From assembly GCF_017848315.1 (NCBI RefSeq), contig NZ_JAFKEC010000009.1:1-64000 (forward strand): a DNA stretch of 64,000 nt, written 5' to 3'. The notes under the pieces were generated by a model. It was not told the DNA's origin, ran no database searches, and saw only the letters and a program-made list of their open reading frames with translations. Shown here one piece after another: positions 3,369 through 57,702 of the stretch. Position 1 is the first letter of the stretch. Every line of letters starts with the position of its first letter. Source of the DNA: Pseudomonas palmensis (GTDB taxonomy: Bacteria; Pseudomonadota; Gammaproteobacteria; Pseudomonadales; Pseudomonadaceae). The position numbers and the translations under genes were made by a program.

Positions 3369-4043
3369 TCAAAAATATCGGGTTGGGTCGGTCACGCCGG
3401 CTGCCCGGAAGCCATCTGCACGCAGGCGGCAGCTGTCGCACTTGCCACAGGCACGGCCTTGATCGTCAGCCTGATAGCACGACACAGTGAGGCTGTAGTC
3501 GACACCACGCGCCATGCCCGCCTGAACGATCTGCGCCTTGCTCAGGTTCTGCAACGGTGCCTGGATGCGAAAGCCCTGCCCCTCGACACCGGCCTTGGTG
3601 GCCAGGTTGGCCATGCGCTCGAATGCTTCGACGAACTCGGGACGGCAATCCGGGTAGCCCGAGTAATCCACCGCGTTCACACCGATGAAGATATCCCGCG
3701 CCTGCAACACCTCGGCCCAGCCCAGCGCCAACGACAGGAACACGGTATTGCGTGCCGGTACGTAGGTCACTGGAATGCCTTCACCCGGTGTCTCGGGTAC
3801 ATCGATGCTACTGTCGGTCAGCGCCGAACCACCAATGCCATCCAGGCTCAGGCCGATCACCTTGTGCTCGACTGCACCCAGGTCACGGGCAACTCGCGCA
3901 GCGGCGTCCAGCTCGGCGCGATGACGCTGGCCGTAGTCGAAACTCATGGTATAGCAGCTGTAGCCTTCGGCCTTGGCCATCGCGACCACCGTGGCCGAGT
4001 CCAGGCCACCAGACAGCAGGATTACCGCACGTTTCTCAGTCAT
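3369..4043 (-). CDS. queC: 7-cyano-7-deazaguanine (preQ0) synthase
   Basis: Cytoplasmic ATP-dependent enzyme that converts 7-carboxy-7-deazaguanine to preQ0 in queuosine biosynthesis. The N-terminal PP-loop reads [10 protein letters not shown] (residues about 9-18). A C-terminal zinc site is visible as CYQAD...CGKCDSC. The ATG at 4043 was chosen because GGGGAG lies 8 bases upstream; the longer frame would need a TTG start overlapping that ribosome site. The length (224 residues) is normal. It lies 15 bases downstream of queE, which makes its substrate, so the two form one operon. Confidence 0.95.
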
Positions 4044-43816: not shown

Positions 43817-44314
43817 TCAAGGTGTGAGCGCGCGTATGTAACCCTGGCAGGCGCGCAGGGCGATCAGTCCGGCGTCACCGGCATCGGTGATGGCGATAAT
43901 TCGTCGAGCATGCGCCGGGTCAAGTCGGGCGCGTGGGGCGCCATGATCCAGGCTGCCGGCGCCGGGGGCGGCAGGCAGGTCGGGGGTGGCGTCGCGGTCG
44001 AGAAGGACCGACAACCGCAGATCAGCAGTAGCCAGCCGATCACGCAAGCGTGCCTGAGCCTGTTGTGCATCGAGAAGCTCCTGATAATGGGTGTTGTCGT
44101 TCAAATCCAGCTGGCGCTCCAGCACATGGCGTTGCTGGCGTTCGCCCTTCAGCTCGGCGGCAGCACGCTCGGCCAGTTGCTGGCGTTCGAATGCCCAGGC
44201 CTGTTGCTGCTGCGCCAGCTGGCGGCCCAGGCGCCAGCCCTGGACCTGCCAGGTCAATGCGCAGGCCAGCACCACCAGGCTCAGCAGCACGCCGGCGTGC
44301 AAGCGGTTCAACAC
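43817..44314 (-). CDS. Inner-membrane spanin (Rz-like)
   Basis: 165 residues: one N-terminal membrane helix (residues about 8-24) followed by a coiled coil rich in Q, E, R and A (LAQQQQAWAFERQQLAERAA). This is the i-spanin layout that disrupts the outer membrane in the last lysis step. It starts with GTG behind GAGG and overlaps the endolysin gene by seven bases. A second lysis gene is nested within it in another frame. Confidence 0.85.
   Translation of the reverse strand: MLNRLHAGVLLSLVVLACALTWQVQGWRLGRQLAQQQQAWAFERQQLAERAAAELKGERQQRHVLERQLDLNDNTHYQELLDAQQAQARLRDRLATADLRLSVLLDRDATPDLPAAPGAGSLDHGAPRARLDPAHARRIIAITDAGDAGLIALRACQGYIRALTP
43864..44070 (-). CDS. Outer-membrane spanin lipoprotein (Rz1-like), nested in Rz
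   Basis: 68 residues wholly inside the i-spanin gene in another frame. The lipobox LLICGC gives a lipidated cysteine at residue 20, and the mature part is proline-rich (TPPPTCLPPPAPA), as in Rz1. It has its own ribosome site (AGGAG, 8 bases before the ATG), which supports real translation. Partner of the i-spanin in fusing the two membranes. Confidence 0.85.
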   Translation of the reverse strand: MHNRLRHACVIGWLLLICGCRSFSTATPPPTCLPPPAPAAWIMAPHAPDLTRRMLDELSPSPMPVTPD

Positions 44315-44859
44315 AGCACCTCGCGGGCGCGGGCCCAGAGTTTGAGGCGATCCTCCAGGCCATTGAGGCCACCGTTGATATGCCGCGTGATGCGGTTGAA
44401 CTCACCGCGGTCGGCCAGCGCGTTAAGCCCGCGCGAGTGCCAGAACCAGGCAGCCGACTCGGCGGCCCAACGCGGTTGCTCGAGCAACTGCGGCAACTCC
44501 AGCAGACGCTCGTCGCCAAACAGCGCCATGCTGCAGGCGCGGTAGTTGTTGCGCCCTGTAACCTGGATCAGCCCCCGGCCGCAGTACCGCTGACCGTCGC
44601 CGTCCGCCTCCGGCGTGTTGCCCAGGCGCAGGGCCAGGGCGCCGGTGTCGTAACGGGACAGGTAGCGATCGCTGCCCAGCTCCTTCACGTAACGCAGGTG
44701 GCCCGACTCGTGGCCGATCTGCGCGAGGAAGGCAGCAATGCGCCGGGGGTTGTCGATTTCCCAACGGGCCATGGCAGTGTTCAGGGCGGGTACAAAAATG
44801 CCGGCATTGGCGCCGGCACCGGGAAGAATCTGCATCAAGTTCTGCTGAGTGATGACCAT
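44308..44859 (-). CDS. GH19-type endolysin (chitinase-like lysozyme)
   Basis: 183 residues with the glycoside hydrolase family 19 fold. The catalytic glutamate region is FLAQIGHESGHLRYVKE (residues about 43-59) and RYCGRGLIQVTGRNNY (about 92-107) follows. It degrades peptidoglycan for release of tail particles. There is no signal peptide, so export depends on the holin. Three tandem ATGs precede it; the third (44859) has the best spacing to GGAGA. Confidence 0.9.
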   Translation of the reverse strand: MVITQQNLMQILPGAGANAGIFVPALNTAMARWEIDNPRRIAAFLAQIGHESGHLRYVKELGSDRYLSRYDTGALALRLGNTPEADGDGQRYCGRGLIQVTGRNNYRACSMALFGDERLLELPQLLEQPRWAAESAAWFWHSRGLNALADRGEFNRITRHINGGLNGLEDRLKLWARAREVLC

Positions 44860-44885
44860 CATCATTCTCCAAAATGCATAGGGGT

Positions 44886-49382: not shown

Positions 49383-50549
49383 TTAAGCTGCGTTATCGAG
49401 AACTTCGGTCAGCCACTGGTTGGTGACCTCGACGCGGAAGTTGGGGTTTTCGGCCGGTGGTACGTCGGTGAAGCGGATGTTCCAGTACACCTTGCCCTGC
49501 TCCAGCTGGCTGGCACTGTTGAGTTCCGGGTCGGCGAACACTTCGAAGTTGATGATCGCGCCCTGGGCCTTGAGGTCGCGCATGAACGCCTGCAGGCCTT
49601 CGGTCACGTCCTTGACGTAGGTGGCGGTGATCGAGCGGTCGACTGCCCATTTGTGCCCGTAGAGAATCGCGTCCATCACGATGTCCATGGTGCGCACGCG
49701 GGTAACGAAGGCCCACTTCGGGTCGCTGCTCAGGGTGCGGTTGCCCCACAGGCGATAGCCGTCATCGCGGATGATGGTGGTGATGTTGGCGTTGTTGAGC
49801 AGGTTGGCGCGGCAGGTCTCGTCGCCATCGAGGAACTCGATGGGGCGGGTGGTGCCGGTGATGCCGACGAACTCCTTGTTCGAGGGCGAGGCCCAGAAGC
49901 CGTACTCGTTGTCGGTCCAGGCGAACAGGCCGGCGACCCAGGCCGAGGCCGCTGCATCGACGGTGGCGCTGGTGGTGGTGTCCCAGTACTGCACGCCCGG
50001 GTCGACCAGGAAGGCGCGCTTGGCGCCGAAGTTTTCGGCGTAGGCCAGGGCGGCCTCGTCGGTGGTGGCCGGGCCGTCGATGATGGCCAGGCCGCGCAGC
50101 TTGTCGGCCAGGGCCACCAGGGCGGTGGCGACGGCTTGAGTTGCGCTGTGCTTTGGAGTGACCAGCAGGCGCGGCTGGGCGTTGAAACGGCTCTTGCCGT
50201 CGAGCAGCGCTTGCAGGCCGGTACGCTTGCCGTCGGCCAGCACGCTGCCGATGATGGCCGAGGTCTGCTCGGCGGCGTCGGCCACCTTGGCCACGCCGCA
50301 GGCGACGATGACCGCCTTGGCGCGCTGGTAGATGGCCTGGCAGGCACGGGTGATGGCCGCGTCGGCGCCGAAGGCGGCGATGGCTTCACGCTCGCTGGTG
50401 ATCAGCACCAGGTCGTTGAACTTGGCGCTGGCGGTCGGGCCTTCGGTGAAGGTGTCCACCAGACCGATGATCGAGGACGACGGCAACGCGATGGTGCGTG
50501 CGCCGGTGTCGACGTTGGTGACGGTGACGCCGTGAAAGAAACCACTCAT
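49383..50549 (-). CDS. Contractile tail sheath protein (gpFI)
   Basis: 388 residues. N-terminal HGVTVTNVDTGARTIALPSSSIIGLVDTF and C-terminal FADPELNSASQLEQGKVYWNIRFTDVPPAENP are the P2 FI/R-pyocin sheath signatures. Its presence makes this an R-type (contractile) and not an F-type particle. Confidence 0.95.
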   Translation of the reverse strand: MSGFFHGVTVTNVDTGARTIALPSSSIIGLVDTFTEGPTASAKFNDLVLITSEREAIAAFGADAAITRACQAIYQRAKAVIVACGVAKVADAAEQTSAIIGSVLADGKRTGLQALLDGKSRFNAQPRLLVTPKHSATQAVATALVALADKLRGLAIIDGPATTDEAALAYAENFGAKRAFLVDPGVQYWDTTTSATVDAAASAWVAGLFAWTDNEYGFWASPSNKEFVGITGTTRPIEFLDGDETCRANLLNNANITTIIRDDGYRLWGNRTLSSDPKWAFVTRVRTMDIVMDAILYGHKWAVDRSITATYVKDVTEGLQAFMRDLKAQGAIINFEVFADPELNSASQLEQGKVYWNIRFTDVPPAENPNFRVEVTNQWLTEVLDNAA

Positions 50550-50567
50550 GGGTAAACTCCGGGTATG

Positions 50568-50594
50568 AAAAAGGCCCTGCGGTGCAGGGCCTTG
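50568..50594 (-). terminator. Intrinsic terminator inside tailocin operon, before sheath
   Basis: Minus strand: AAGGCCCTGCACCGCAGGGCCTTTTT. It lies between the 110-residue gene and the sheath gene. Confidence 0.8.
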
Positions 50595-50658
50595 TAAGGT
50601 TGGATCGGCAACTATCGGGGTGAACCGGCCGTTGCAGGTACAGGTGCGGTGGCCAAAA

Positions 50659-50991
50659 TCAGGCGAGGAAGTCCCAGGTCAGCGAGATCGCGGCGACAGA
50701 GTTGTTCGAGACGGTCCACAGCCCGTAGCCAGCAGGGATAAGCAGTGGGTAGGGTTGGGTGTACTGCCAGTTGTTGCTACTGGCTACTCCGCCCATGATG
50801 GCGTGCACCGTCATGTCACCCAGACGAGCAGGTGCCTTGGGACCGCTGTACAGGTTGATGATGCCGCCGCCGGTGCAAATGGTGGCGGTGCGCAGATAGA
50901 CACCTTCCTTGTTTTCTTCCGGGCTGAAGACTTGAGTCACCGTGGTCGGGTGAGCGTTGAAGAAATGCTTGCCTACTTTTACTGGTTCCAT
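50659..50991 (-). CDS. Unknown tailocin-borne protein, 110 residues
   Basis: 110 residues, not recognised. No signal peptide or clear membrane helix. It is mostly beta-type sequence (VYLRTATICTGGGIINLYSGP; YPLLIPAGYGLWTVSNNSVAAISLTWDF), like a small beta-sandwich. AGGT lies 8 bases before the ATG. With the Com-like gene it forms a two-gene module bounded by terminators on both sides. It could be an accessory structural or surface-binding protein; this is inference. Confidence 0.6.
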   Translation of the reverse strand: MEPVKVGKHFFNAHPTTVTQVFSPEENKEGVYLRTATICTGGGIINLYSGPKAPARLGDMTVHAIMGGVASSNNWQYTQPYPLLIPAGYGLWTVSNNSVAAISLTWDFLA

Positions 50992-51001
50992 GATTTTTTA
51001 C

Positions 51002-51187
51002 CTATCGAGTCGAATGCTGGGTAGCGGAACATTCCGCGTTCATGTCGCTCACAGGCGATGGTTCGAGGCTCGTGGCCTTCATATGATTCAACGTTCCGCA
51101 GCGGGAACATTTGATCTGGAGTTCGGTGAACTTGCCTATCCGGGCAAGTAGTCGTTTGCATCTGCCGCATCTGCAATCTTTCAACAT
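51002..51187 (-). CDS. com: Com-family zinc-finger regulator (Mu Com-like)
   Basis: 61 residues beginning MLKDCRCGRCKRLLARIG and containing IKCSRCGTLN: the two CxxC knuckles and the F..LxIKCxRC spacing of phage Mu Com. Mu Com binds mom mRNA and frees its start codon for translation. No mom-like DNA-modification gene is adjacent; the next gene encodes the 110-residue protein. The start at 51187 was chosen by the family N-terminus, with AAGG 8 bases upstream. Confidence 0.78.
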   Translation of the reverse strand: MLKDCRCGRCKRLLARIGKFTELQIKCSRCGTLNHMKATSLEPSPVSDMNAECSATQHSTR

Positions 51188-51230
51188 CTGCGATGCCTTG
51201 TGATTATCTGCTGGAGGGTCTTGAAGAATG

Positions 51231-51256
51231 AAAAAGCCCCGACAGTGCGGGGCTTC
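51231..51256 (-). terminator. Intrinsic terminator inside tailocin operon, after fibre chaperone
   Basis: Minus strand: GCCCCGCACTGTCGGGGC followed by TTTTT, directly after the tail fibre chaperone stop. Confidence 0.8.
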
Positions 51257-51683
51257 AGGGGGTGATGCTTTCCAACCAGAGCGGCGGTACTGGCCGGTGC
51301 TCAGAAACTGGGAACAGCTCCGACTGGGGCCAGTCGCGCAGAGCCTGACGGTACTGCAGCAGCTCGGCGAACTGCTTGATTTGTAGCGTGGTCGCCAACT
51401 GCATGTCTTGCTGATCGCGGTGCCGGATGACCACCCACTCAGTAGCAATGACTTGATTATCACGCCATGTCCGCTCTGCGGCCTCAGCTCCATTCGGTTT
51501 GAAAGGGGGATCTATTAGATATGGCACCCCATCATCACCGTGCATACGAATCTTGCCTAGGCTGGGGCTTCCCACCACTAAATCGAAAACCTCCGTCGAT
51601 ATCTCAATAGCATCGGCGGGTATTACGGCATGCAGACCTTTGACGTAGCAGTTGCCCGTTGTCGGGCTGTAGAGTCGCGACAT
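51255..51683 (-). CDS. Tail fibre assembly chaperone
   Basis: 142 residues. N-terminal FYSP-like SRLYSPTTGNCYVKGLHAVIP and C-terminal LQIKQFAELLQYRQALRDWP fit the phage tail-fibre assembly (Tfa-like) family that folds the receptor-binding fibre. It starts 2 bases after the fibre stop. Fibre and chaperone normally co-evolve. Confidence 0.87.
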   Translation of the reverse strand: MSRLYSPTTGNCYVKGLHAVIPADAIEISTEVFDLVVGSPSLGKIRMHGDDGVPYLIDPPFKPNGAEAAERTWRDNQVIATEWVVIRHRDQQDMQLATTLQIKQFAELLQYRQALRDWPQSELFPVSEHRPVPPLWLESITP

Positions 51684-51685
51684 TG

Positions 51686-53629
51686 TTATTTCCCCACTGC
51701 AAACCAGAACACCGCATTCGCAACTGTCACGTTTGACGAGTTGTTACAGCGGAATGTGATGCTGTTTTTACTCAAGTTGTCCGGATTAAACAGCACTGAA
51801 ATACCCGCTGCTGATGTGCCACTGATCGCACCGGTGATGGAAAACAGCTGAGTTGGAAAGGCCATTGGAAACACAAGTGTCTTACTTGCCCCCGCATTCC
51901 CCAGGTCCGCCCCCCACTGGAAAACGAAACCACCCAACCATGACGGCAACGCAAGCCAGCCGTTGGGTGTAGCACTGAAACTAACACCCCAACGCAGCTT
52001 TTTCGGCGTGACAATCACGTCATCCGCCACGCCTGCATCGACCTGCGCCTGAGTTGCAATCCGGTCAAAGGTCATCAGGCTCGACCAGAAAACCGTCCCG
52101 ATACGGTCATTCCATTGACCTACCCAATAACGCCGGGACGCCACCGTTGGACCGTTCTCAAACGCGAAGTAGTACGTGGAGTCGCTACGGACGTTAACAG
52201 CAACAATACCCAGCAGGTTGTTGGCGCTTTCAGGTGGGCATCCAGGCGTTGCGTTAGGCGCCGCCGCACCGGCGCCCACATAGAACCCCGTCTTACTGTT
52301 TCCGCTGAACGTTGCTAGGACAGGCGGGTTATCGGTGCCAACCCCCCAGCTATTGAGCATCTTCAATGCGAGCTGAGCGACCCTTAGCGGGGGCATGATC
52401 TTCGCATTGTCGGTGCCTGCTTCAGCTTCGGCCTGGGTTGCCTGTGCTGCTCGCAGTTTCTTGGGCGTGATGATCGTCGTGTCATCCGCGCCGGTGGTGA
52501 CCTGCGCCTGGGTCGCCACCTTCGCCCAACCAAATTTACTTTCCGTCGCCTGAGTGACCACCTTAGCAATCGCTTGGAACACCCGCAGCGGCGTCATAAC
52601 ATTGGTGTCGTCAGTGCCAGCCTCTGCCTCCGGCTGCGTGGCTCTTATCGTGAGCGACTGCACTAGGTCATTCACCTGCGTCTTGGTGTACACGTCCGTC
52701 AACCCGTAACCCGCCACTGTGGTTGGGTTCGTCGCGGCGACCACTCGGCCATAGGCGTCGACCTGTACGCTACGGTAAGTACCAGCGGCCACCCCGGTGC
52801 GGCCGAATGCCATCCCGTAGTTCAAGGCAGTCACGCCCAAGGTAATCGGCGCATCAGTCAGCAGTTGCCATGCGCTGTCGGCGTTTACCGTCCCGCGCTC
52901 GACCAGCACCAACATGCCCGGCGTCACCTTCGCACTGGCATCGGCATCGGTGCAGCGTGTCCAGGCGCCCCCTGCCACCACCAGATACAAGCCATTGTCC
53001 TTGGCAACGGCCTGATTCTTCACGAGCACCCGCGCCCCGGCCGTCAGCGCAACGCCGTCCACCGTCTGAAGGCCGCTCAAAGTGATGGCGGCGGTCGTCG
53101 CGGCCAGCACCGAGTGCTTGAAGTCCTGCCGTGCCAGTTCCTCGGTGACCCATTCCCGCGTGGCCAGCACCACGCTCGGGTCGATCTTGAGCACGACATT
53201 GCTGGCGCTGCTGACCACCAGGTTCATGCGCACCACCTGGGTACGGCCCGAGCCCTGGTTGAGCAACGGCTTGTAGGTAGGCGCACAGTTGGCCACCGCC
53301 ACCAGGTCGCCGTCGGCGTCGTACAGCCCAACTTCGCGAATCCAGCGACCGCCGATCTCGGCCGGAATCACCTGCTCGGCGACGATGACCGCACTGTCCT
53401 TTTCGTCGACCTTGAGCTGGTTCAGCGGCGCCCGCCGCCACTCGTTGAGCAGGCTGGTCCAGCTCGCGTCGGGCATTGGCAGCGGCGGGTTGTCCAGCCC
53501 TGCCGGACTGGCGTCACCGACGGCCATGTGTGTGATTTTCCAAGGAATGCCCAGGGCATCCGCATTGGCCTGTTTCGCGGCCCCCACCTTGGTCAGGATC
53601 GCGTAGAACTGGGAGTTCTGATCAACCAT
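51686..53629 (-). CDS. Tail fibre / receptor-binding protein
   Basis: 647 residues. The N-terminal 160 (DQNSQFYAILTKVGAAKQANADALG; WRRAPLNQLKVDEKD; GRWIREVGLYDADGDLVAVAN) form the baseplate-attachment domain of P2 H-type fibres. The middle carries at least four copies of an ATQAxxxxGxDDxxxxTPxxLR repeat (roughly residues 330-425 and 535-560). The C-terminal tip has GGFVFQWG, as in gp53-like fibre tips. This protein sets which strains are killed. The 3' half looks lower in GC than its neighbours. Confidence 0.9.
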   Translation of the reverse strand: MVDQNSQFYAILTKVGAAKQANADALGIPWKITHMAVGDASPAGLDNPPLPMPDASWTSLLNEWRRAPLNQLKVDEKDSAVIVAEQVIPAEIGGRWIREVGLYDADGDLVAVANCAPTYKPLLNQGSGRTQVVRMNLVVSSASNVVLKIDPSVVLATREWVTEELARQDFKHSVLAATTAAITLSGLQTVDGVALTAGARVLVKNQAVAKDNGLYLVVAGGAWTRCTDADASAKVTPGMLVLVERGTVNADSAWQLLTDAPITLGVTALNYGMAFGRTGVAAGTYRSVQVDAYGRVVAATNPTTVAGYGLTDVYTKTQVNDLVQSLTIRATQPEAEAGTDDTNVMTPLRVFQAIAKVVTQATESKFGWAKVATQAQVTTGADDTTIITPKKLRAAQATQAEAEAGTDNAKIMPPLRVAQLALKMLNSWGVGTDNPPVLATFSGNSKTGFYVGAGAAAPNATPGCPPESANNLLGIVAVNVRSDSTYYFAFENGPTVASRRYWVGQWNDRIGTVFWSSLMTFDRIATQAQVDAGVADDVIVTPKKLRWGVSFSATPNGWLALPSWLGGFVFQWGADLGNAGASKTLVFPMAFPTQLFSITGAISGTSAAGISVLFNPDNLSKNSITFRCNNSSNVTVANAVFWFAVGK

Positions 53630-56666: not shown

Positions 56667-57686
56667 CTACGGCTCGAACCAGCCGGTCGGCGCAATCCGA
56701 CCCTCGGAGCGCTTGGCTGCCAGCGTGCCGGCATTCTTGAAGTTGAAGGTCTGCGGGTACAGGAACGCCAGCGATACGCCACCGAACACGAAGCTGCGCG
56801 AGCCGCTGTTGTCCTTCAGGTCGTAATTGGTACGTACATCGTGGTTTCCGCTGTCGGGCGAGAAGTACTCGGCGTAGTCACCGGTGGCAGAGGTGCTCAT
56901 GACGCACCTGGAGTCCATTCGAACGCCGGTAGCCAAGGGTGCGATATACCCGGAGCAGTCCATCAAGGTGCCGACAGGGCCTGGACTTGCACCGGGCGTT
57001 TCGGGTCGTAGCAGGTAAATGCCTCTGGACACCACCTCGGTGCCGGTGTCGTAGATGTTGCGCACCTCATGGGTGTCCAGATAGAACGACGCCAGGTAGC
57101 AGAAATGTGCGAACCCGGGGGGCGCGGGCAACAAAAATGCGCCGAAGGACAGCGCCCCTATATTGTCGAGCGTAAGGGTGGTTGCAGTGTTAGCGACGAC
57201 GGTCGCTACCCGGCCGGACCACTGCCCGCCCTCACTGATGACCAGGCACTGCACACCGGCAAGATTGTTGTCGGCCATCCAGTCGTAGCTTTTTTCAGCG
57301 ATATCGTGGGTACCCTCGCCGGCCTTGTTCAGCGTGATCACGTTGCCGCTGATACTGCCCACGCGCAGGAACGGCATGGTTTTCACCACGGCACTGGCGT
57401 CACCTTCATTGGCACAGGCAAACGCGGCGTACCAGCTCTCTTTGCAGTTGCTGCGTTCGGCACCGAGACCGGCTGGCGCCACGCTGGCGACCTTGTCAGC
57501 CATCGCGAAGGTCGGAACCATGCCCCGTGTGTATTGGCCGCGAAAGCGAAAACCGCCCATCGCAACAAAACTCCTGCTCAGCCTGACCGACGTGGCAGAG
57601 CCGTAGATCACCGCGTCGCGCGGCCCCTGGGCCAGGGTTAGGCCGACGTAGCCGGCATTCTCGTACAAGCGGGTGTTATCAGACAT
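56667..57686 (-). CDS. Tailocin protein of unknown function, 339 residues
   Basis: 339 residues beginning MSDNTRLYENAGYVGLTLA, not recognised. It has no signal peptide or membrane helix and is beta-rich with many Gly, Ser and Thr (GNVITLNKAGEGTHD; RVATVVANTATTLTLDN), which suggests a structural beta protein. Several cysteines are spread along it. It lies between holin and baseplate genes, a position with no counterpart in P2, so it may be a decorating or surface-binding component; this is inference. Confidence 0.65.
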   Translation of the reverse strand: MSDNTRLYENAGYVGLTLAQGPRDAVIYGSATSVRLSRSFVAMGGFRFRGQYTRGMVPTFAMADKVASVAPAGLGAERSNCKESWYAAFACANEGDASAVVKTMPFLRVGSISGNVITLNKAGEGTHDIAEKSYDWMADNNLAGVQCLVISEGGQWSGRVATVVANTATTLTLDNIGALSFGAFLLPAPPGFAHFCYLASFYLDTHEVRNIYDTGTEVVSRGIYLLRPETPGASPGPVGTLMDCSGYIAPLATGVRMDSRCVMSTSATGDYAEYFSPDSGNHDVRTNYDLKDNSGSRSFVFGGVSLAFLYPQTFNFKNAGTLAAKRSEGRIAPTGWFEP

Positions 57687-57702
57687 AGGTTTCTCCGGAC
57701 AT

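Follow-up and report, generated by a model that had tools for sequence, protein, structure and literature searches.

The locus analysed here raises the question of what a gene of the phage Mu com family controls when the gene that follows it is neither mom nor a methyltransferase gene. Within a 64,000-nt stretch of Pseudomonas palmensis DNA (the window), com is followed by the gene of a 110-aa protein that we call P110 (Table 1). The original prediction for this locus had described a 61-residue zinc-finger protein resembling Mu Com, encoded within a tail operon without mom and forming, with its neighbour, a pair bounded by terminators, and our analysis bears out each of these points. In profile searches, the com product matches PF10122 well above threshold (E=1.1e-19, 70 bits against a cut-off of 22.9) as well as the 'translational regulator' family PHROG 6417 (E=9.6e-21), and all four cysteines of the zinc layout (C7xxC10 and C26xxC29) are present. 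The pair is flanked by a tail-fibre-assembly gene and the tail sheath gene of a P2-like tail cluster, a tailocin, which adjoins mutS and a PrtR-like repressor gene (the last two named by eye). The mutS-cinA interval is the site of prophage-like pyocins in fluorescent pseudomonads, according to the available text of PMC2647930, and the window's tail cluster sits at this site. Terminator-like hairpins lie on both sides of the pair, the downstream one with a 10-bp stem followed by TTTC, and no sigma-70-like promoter was found in 49500-52500. The com stop codon, TAG, overlaps the SD of P110, with 10 nt between this stop and the P110 ATG. An Rfam search of 50500-51500 gave five matches at E up to 10, none of them close to its family's gathering score (the best 22.1 against 70), so no curated RNA family is recognised here; the best sub-threshold matches (asX2) fall on terminator-like repeats.

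Table 1. Positions, in window numbering, of the features discussed in the text.
Feature	Position	Strand	Description
com	51002-51187	-	61-aa zinc-ribbon protein, PF10122
P110	50659-50991	-	110 aa, predicted jelly roll, putative switch cargo
Com RNA element	50985-51079	-	match to covariance model R1, 95.4 bits
P0 hairpin	51066-51078	-	AGGC-CACGA-GCCU, Com-site motif CC(N2)GAG
P1 hairpin	51045-51058	-	UCGC-CUGUGA-GCGA, CC(N3)GAG, 6-nt loop
P2 hairpin	51024-51037	-	GCGGA-AUGU-UCCGC, nested in the predicted off-state helix
Linker and SD	51000-51017	-	GCAUUCGACUCGAUAGGU, pairs with the P1 region in the predicted off-state
Terminator-like hairpin, tail-fibre-assembly gene/com gap	51233-51256	-	from the terminator scan
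Terminator-like hairpin, P110/tail sheath gap	50571-50593	-	from the sequence, absent from the scan list
Tail-fibre-assembly gene	51255-51683		
Tail sheath gene	49383-50549		
344-aa ORF	56670-57701	-	between a holin-like gene and baseplate genes
Tailocin endolysin	44308-44865	-	

In tblastn searches, several P110 copies had no more than the final 25-30 codons' worth of com before them, and some of these loci also contained a fuller com at another position. This pointed to a nucleic-acid element within the 3′ end of com rather than to the protein. These leaders align from the P0 hairpin to the start codon, and the DNA further upstream of com-less copies looks unrelated. The resulting Com RNA element, of about 95 nt, overlaps both the 3′ end of com and the start of P110. 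Its covariance model, R1, was built from 36 sequences, the window's own element among them. From these 36 sequences RNAalifold recovered P0, P1 and P2 without a given structure. The fraction of pair cells that are paired (94.7%, compared with 89.0% in shuffles) and the covariation score (0.187, compared with 0.083) were each reached in 0/500 shuffles, and pairing counts in the element also exceed slid controls. P1 yields no covariation among the model sequences because its stem is invariant there.

The loops of P0 and P1 both contain the motif reported for Mu Com. As given in the available sections of PMC6483171, SELEX and in vitro binding with Mu Com selected CC(N2-3)GAG in a hairpin loop whose closing pair is invariably C-G; an earlier study, by the same account, gave contradictory hairpin-binding results. 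Matching these in vitro data, we predict both loops to be Com sites, by analogy with Mu Com, a distant relative of the Pseudomonas protein and the source of the motif. At least one full CC(N2-3)GAG hairpin is found at 139 of 146 com 3′ ends and absent from the other seven, compared with a mean of 2.4 and a maximum of 6 in mononucleotide shuffles, a contrast inflated by relatedness and by the coding function of com. The stem changes are nevertheless compensatory, with UCGC/GCGA, AGGC/GCCU, ACGC/GCGU, GGGC/GCCC, GCGC/GCGC and AUGC/GCAU among the stems observed.

Folding of these leaders predicts an off-state in which a helix enclosing P2 joins the P1 arm and loop (consensus UCGCCUUUGAGCGACAUGA) to the linker and SD (UCAUUCGACUCAAUAGGUGA). 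The folding set comprised 115 elements with the exact P1 pattern, 114 of them unique and 88 with an SD. For these 88, the SD is unpaired with a probability of 0.12, compared with 0.39 in 225 control ORFs (p 9e-24, with SD matches of at least 4 nt for elements and at least 5 nt for controls), and in silico removal of P0 and P1 raises this value to 0.36. The window's SD behaves similarly, moving from 0.02 to 0.30 on the same removal. An alignment-free duplex test, with row and column effects removed and with an energy cap and a length filter, shows that cognate arm-SD duplexes are more stable than mixed ones, both in the full set (-14.79 versus -13.79 kcal/mol, n=95, 0/10000 permutations) and in a non-redundant set (-13.80 versus -12.85, n=48, 3/10000 permutations); duplexes with the arm's own shuffled 3′ strand reach -7.0 (n=95). 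The total folding energy of the window leader is ordinary (z = -0.18, equalled or bettered by 83/200 shuffles), so the argument is built on comparison rather than on stability. In the unbound ensemble the P1 helix has a probability of 0.10, and enforcing it leaves the SD only 0.34 unpaired; because P1 is rarely formed without ligand, Com would have to capture a rare state.

A related arrangement appears in a second class of leaders. In the com-dam leader of phage UMP151, the 3′ arm of P0, GCCUCCUGA, complements UCAGGAGGC, and by eye seven of nine dam-like leaders show the same 8-9 bp P0-arm complementarity. Both the P1-arm class and the com-dam class thus overlap a Com-site hairpin with an anti-SD, as a switch operated by Com would require. 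The standard linker/SD geometry is absent from the tailocin-lysozyme class.

We examined the distribution of the element across 398 Pseudomonas genomes and 369 genomes drawn from the class, using the stricter filters applied to sets of over 40 genomes. R1 matched 148 sites in 93 of the 398 Pseudomonas genomes and, in the class set, the window's own genome alone; a P110 profile likewise matched only the window's own genome among the 369. P110 is present in 20 of the 398 Pseudomonas genomes and com in 119, or in 118 when the one genome below the cut-off, G194, is left out. Nineteen of the 20 P110 genomes carry com, compared with 118/398 overall (Fisher p 4.7e-10, a value that ignores relatedness), and an R1 match lies directly upstream of 27 of 28 P110 matches. 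The P110 frame is free of internal stops in 27/28 matches, and a copy with an internal stop codon (L027, G271:C4:222398-222724) is still matched by the Com element. Of the 93 genomes with an element, 92 carry com. The exception, G076, retains an intact P110 behind a leader that has lost P0 and P1, and the missing com may be an assembly gap, because this genome is a draft (93% complete, 650 contigs). Conversely, 26 com genomes have no R1 match.

Together, these findings make it likely, in our judgement, that the com-P110 pair acts as a translational switch under Com control, its cargo having been exchanged. Conservation, the loop motif, covariation, predicted SD occlusion and co-occurrence are what the analysis shows, and Com binding, switching and action in trans are inferred. 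Without Com, the P1 arm and loop would pair with the cargo's linker and SD, closing ribosome access. Com, whether translated from the same mRNA or encoded by another com gene in the genome, would bind the CC(N2-3)GAG loops of P0 and P1, and bound Com would hold these two hairpins, exclude the long inhibitory helix and free the SD. A translational switch for a different cargo was one of two readings offered by the original prediction, which had proposed looking at co-occurrence elsewhere and at the fold around 50980-51010. The first supports that reading, as does the predicted SD-masking structure that we find in this interval, one arm of which contains the Mu Com-binding motif. What had been missed is that the RNA element also occurs apart from com and in front of many cargos, and that it probably functions in trans.

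The range of cargos is broad. A cargo was readable for 146 of the 148 elements (the two without a cargo start were dropped), with Pfam assignments made on representatives. P110 is the most frequent, following 30 elements in 23 genomes, one copy having an internal stop. LlpA-like B-lectin genes follow 21 elements, a label based on a B_lectin match below the Pfam cut-off (E=1.1e-6, 29.5 versus 32.4 bits) together with likeness by eye. The remainder are DUF642 proteins (18 elements), GH19 tailocin lysozymes (15), DUF6242/propeller-like proteins (14), a secreted-looking 213-aa protein (11), levansucrases of GH68 (8), GH5 enzymes (7), colicin M (5), a 389-aa protein (3), and small clusters, singletons or misread starts (14). 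At 38 com genes R1 has no match immediately downstream, and the genes that follow these encode, by eye, Dcm-, Dam- and N-type methyltransferases, LlpA, GH5, the 213-aa protein and others.

Similar cargos are found on viral contigs, where a locus scan took in 80 of 120 loci and 70 of 72 elements could be typed (two were cut off at locus ends). At least 68 of these elements have a start, preceding P110 (35), LlpA-like (17), DUF642 (5), colicin M (4), other (5) and unassigned (2) genes; the counts are lower bounds and the proportions biased, because the P1 sequence was the query. On viral contigs L253 and L267, Com elements precede alginate-lyase-like genes, the protein of the latter matching Alginate_lyase2, which adds an enzyme class to the cargos. 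In phage DVM-2008 (EU982300), the colicin-M-like gene cma directly follows an unannotated com-like stretch (positions 3425-3620) that contains a full Com element (101 bits). Within the window's own tailocin, the endolysin belongs by eye to the class that has a Com element in 15 other genomes, and no R1 match was found before it. The 344-aa ORF, without a PHROG match at 1e-5, may be another tailocin cargo.

For 40 of the 148 elements there is no adjoining com. Their genomes nonetheless carry com elsewhere in 23 of 24 cases, which suggests action in trans, and a com remnant within 200 nt upstream is absent from 35 of the 40 and present at five. Remote elements, separated from com by more than 20 kb or placed on another contig, occur in 13 genomes, of which 12 carry com, compared with 118/398 overall (binomial 4.4e-6); because the genomes are related, these p-values are guides only. 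As the element is separable from com and precedes many unrelated genes, one com could serve several cargos in trans. One genome (G362:C1) has six Com elements, five of which cluster within about 15 kb, along with five com matches; the cargos there are P110, colicin M, a 382-aa protein and two LlpA-like genes.

Many remote elements also share a sequence further upstream. The pattern CTG[GT]TTG[ACT]AT[AG]T[AC]CAG has 11 matches on both strands of 460,464 bases around elements, all 70-105 nt above an element, which corresponds to 11 of the 16 elements far from any com; this count is descriptive, because the pattern was written after seeing some of the leaders. A palindrome-score search for LexA sites at a looser score marked 4/40 standalone and 8/106 com-linked elements. 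Across three whole genomes, a looser pattern gave 5, 10 and 7 hits, compared with 0, 1 and 1 for its reverse. Among the hits in G174 are sites before uvrB and before an impB/mucB-type polymerase gene; other hits precede genes of other kinds, for some of which we know of no SOS link. Given this context, we take these SOS-type boxes to be putative LexA sites. Since remote cargos often have such a box, they should need both DNA damage, for transcription, and Com, that is, tailocin or prophage induction, for translation. We lean towards a wider view in which a genus-wide translational regulon, acting in trans and built on a mobile RNA box, centres on Com, with remote cargos under joint SOS and Com control and with P110 as the commonest dedicated cargo, representing a new tailocin-associated class of released proteins. 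In such a regulon the Com hairpins would double as the anti-SD, and the box could precede any gene.

The role of P110 itself is approached through its fold and its company. The window protein has no Pfam match and no NCBIfam match over the cut-off (E 0.15), and its sole PHROG match is a weak one to PHROG 31751 (E=0.017), a family of unknown function that 11 of 32 P110 family members match at E<=0.01 (best 1.1e-74). Searches of the family against Pfam, NCBIfam and PADLOC gave nothing over the cut-off or at E<=0.001, with single members at E 0.02-0.1. A tblastn search of phage records found no match to P110, although viral contigs hold many copies, and a plasmid search found none. An AlphaFold2 model from 32 sequences, the window protein and its relatives, has nine strands (mean pLDDT 93.5, pTM 0.85) and is predicted to be a jelly roll. 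By eye, P110 has no signal peptide. Members of one subfamily (L206, L221, L232, L246, L252 and L268) end in a common N-[AP]-D-G-T-V-A tail, possibly an assembly or export tag, which the window's group lacks.

The switch might in principle time a structural gene, with P110 serving as part of a particle, for example as a tailocin or phage decoration protein. P110 does lie inside a tail cluster, and its top PDB neighbours are entries for a phage pentameric capsid-like protein (4dmi/4e27, Foldseek E 2e-4 to 1e-3, TMq 0.53-0.60). This capsid-like jelly roll gives a VIA Z of 7.8, within 1 of unrelated entries, and other neighbours, with Z up to 8.1, include a spore appendage, nucleoplasmin and C1q/TNF folds. 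Of 72 BFVD matches at E<=0.001, the best 50 include a few named virion proteins and otherwise consist mostly of unnamed or uncharacterised entries, many about 100-130 aa long; P110 may belong to a family beyond the jelly rolls listed. Because the fold is common, no function follows from it, and a structural role is a live rival. We nonetheless think such a role rather unlikely, given that P110 copies also occur in tandem, on other contigs and at sites remote from any com, that an LlpA-like gene lies within 5 kb of 8 of 30 P110 elements, and that the element's other cargos are enzymes and bacteriocins. It is this company that makes release on tailocin lysis the most likely fate, and P110 is probably such a released product.

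A different objection concerns Com itself. Ribosomes translating com, or a short leader frame, could melt the inhibitory helix and re-initiate at the cargo by translational coupling, with no need for the Com protein. The geometry is compatible with this, as the com frame ends from -10 to +4 nt of the cargo start in at least 40 of the 46 com-linked elements scored (those with the AUG pattern, out of 106), the com stop in the window overlaps the SD, and all 23 standalone elements scored have a possible in-frame upstream start. Furthermore, according to the accessible portion of PMC3899960, a stop-codon mutation in plasmid-borne com left levansucrase output unchanged in P. syringae PG4180, where other com copies could act in trans. 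Several lines of evidence make coupling improbable, however. Most standalone elements lack a com remnant, as described above, the open frame upstream is at most 35 codons in 18 of the 23 scored, and several standalone frames end away from the SD. The loops also retain the Com-binding motif, and com is present in nearly all genomes with remote elements. Coupling may still operate at com-linked copies, and a short leader frame may do so at standalone ones. The idea of a mini-ORF or leader peptide was set aside, the frame from the conserved AUG ending away from the SD in several standalone elements.

The conserved upstream DNA could instead act in transcription, as a mobile promoter in which the com tail is a passenger. 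In P. syringae, the sections of PMC3899960 and PMC3973379 available to us describe the phage-associated promoter element (PAPE), a mobile com-bearing leader before levansucrase and glycosyl hydrolase genes, defined as a mobile promoter of about 500 bp that lies upstream of lscB/C and includes com. The GH68 and GH5 genes are cargos of the Com RNA element too, and SOS-type boxes above remote elements would fit a transcriptional role. In contrast to the promoter reading, we read the com-proximal end of PAPE as a translational RNA switch. The conserved unit runs from P0 to the cargo start, shows paired covariation and is predicted to mask the SD, and the apparently unrelated DNA above com-less copies adds to what makes a mobile promoter very improbable as the explanation. 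Hardly credible, finally, is the second reading of the original prediction, a decayed moron in which com and P110 are non-working leftovers of a Mu-like or P2-like module without its modification gene: the lack of mom or a methyltransferase after com, the internal stop in the G271 relative and the G076 leader without P0 and P1 would suit it, but the zinc finger and both frames are intact, nearly all P110 matches are free of internal stops, and conservation of the RNA persists in copies that have lost com.

The proposed Com-controlled switch can be set against known systems. Like Mu com-mom, as far as the text of PMC6483171 available to us describes it, the locus combines a zinc-ribbon Com with a CC(N2-3)GAG hairpin loop closed by C-G (AUGC-CUGCGA-GCAU in the Mu sequence), placed near the 3′ part of com and adjoining a structure that masks the downstream start, here by prediction. 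It differs from Mu in its cargo, P110 rather than mom; in having two tandem hairpins, compared with one seen in Mu, where the same text suggests more than one site; in that the predicted anti-SD is the Com site itself; in that the SD is predicted to be masked, whereas the Mu structure holds a GUG start within a stem; and in the existence of com-less elements that probably act in trans. In Burkholderia phage AP3 (Peduoviridae), com similarly lies between the tail-fibre-assembly and tail sheath genes and has two CC(N2-3)GAG hairpins at its 3′ end, but the cargo is a DNA methyltransferase, and a search with R1 at E up to 10 listed no match there.

Parts of this picture are already published. The 2018 review 'Lectin-Like Bacteriocins' (PMC6240691), in the portion available, finds com ahead of some 90% of L-type bacteriocin genes (except in P. 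aeruginosa) and also before other tailocin cargo, a lytic enzyme and levansucrase homologues, with a general role that 'remains to be explored'. Its com-LlpA loci share the com family and the tailocin setting of the window, and the same portion makes no mention of the RNA element, com-less copies or P110. The position of com before bacteriocin, lysozyme, levansucrase and GH genes (PMC6240691, PMC3899960, in their available sections) and the Mu mechanism are thus prior knowledge. The RNA element, its com-less copies and the SOS-plus-Com layout were not found in literature searches, which covered few subscription papers.

These findings offer a concrete answer to the question of the general role of com, in the form of a defined RNA element with its predicted off-state and predicted Com site, together with the cargos that it precedes. 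They mark P110 as a widespread cargo of the putative switch, and R1 can find further cargo genes by their leaders alone. Furthermore, they recast a translational activator known from phage as a candidate AND-gate that would govern bacteriocins and other released proteins.
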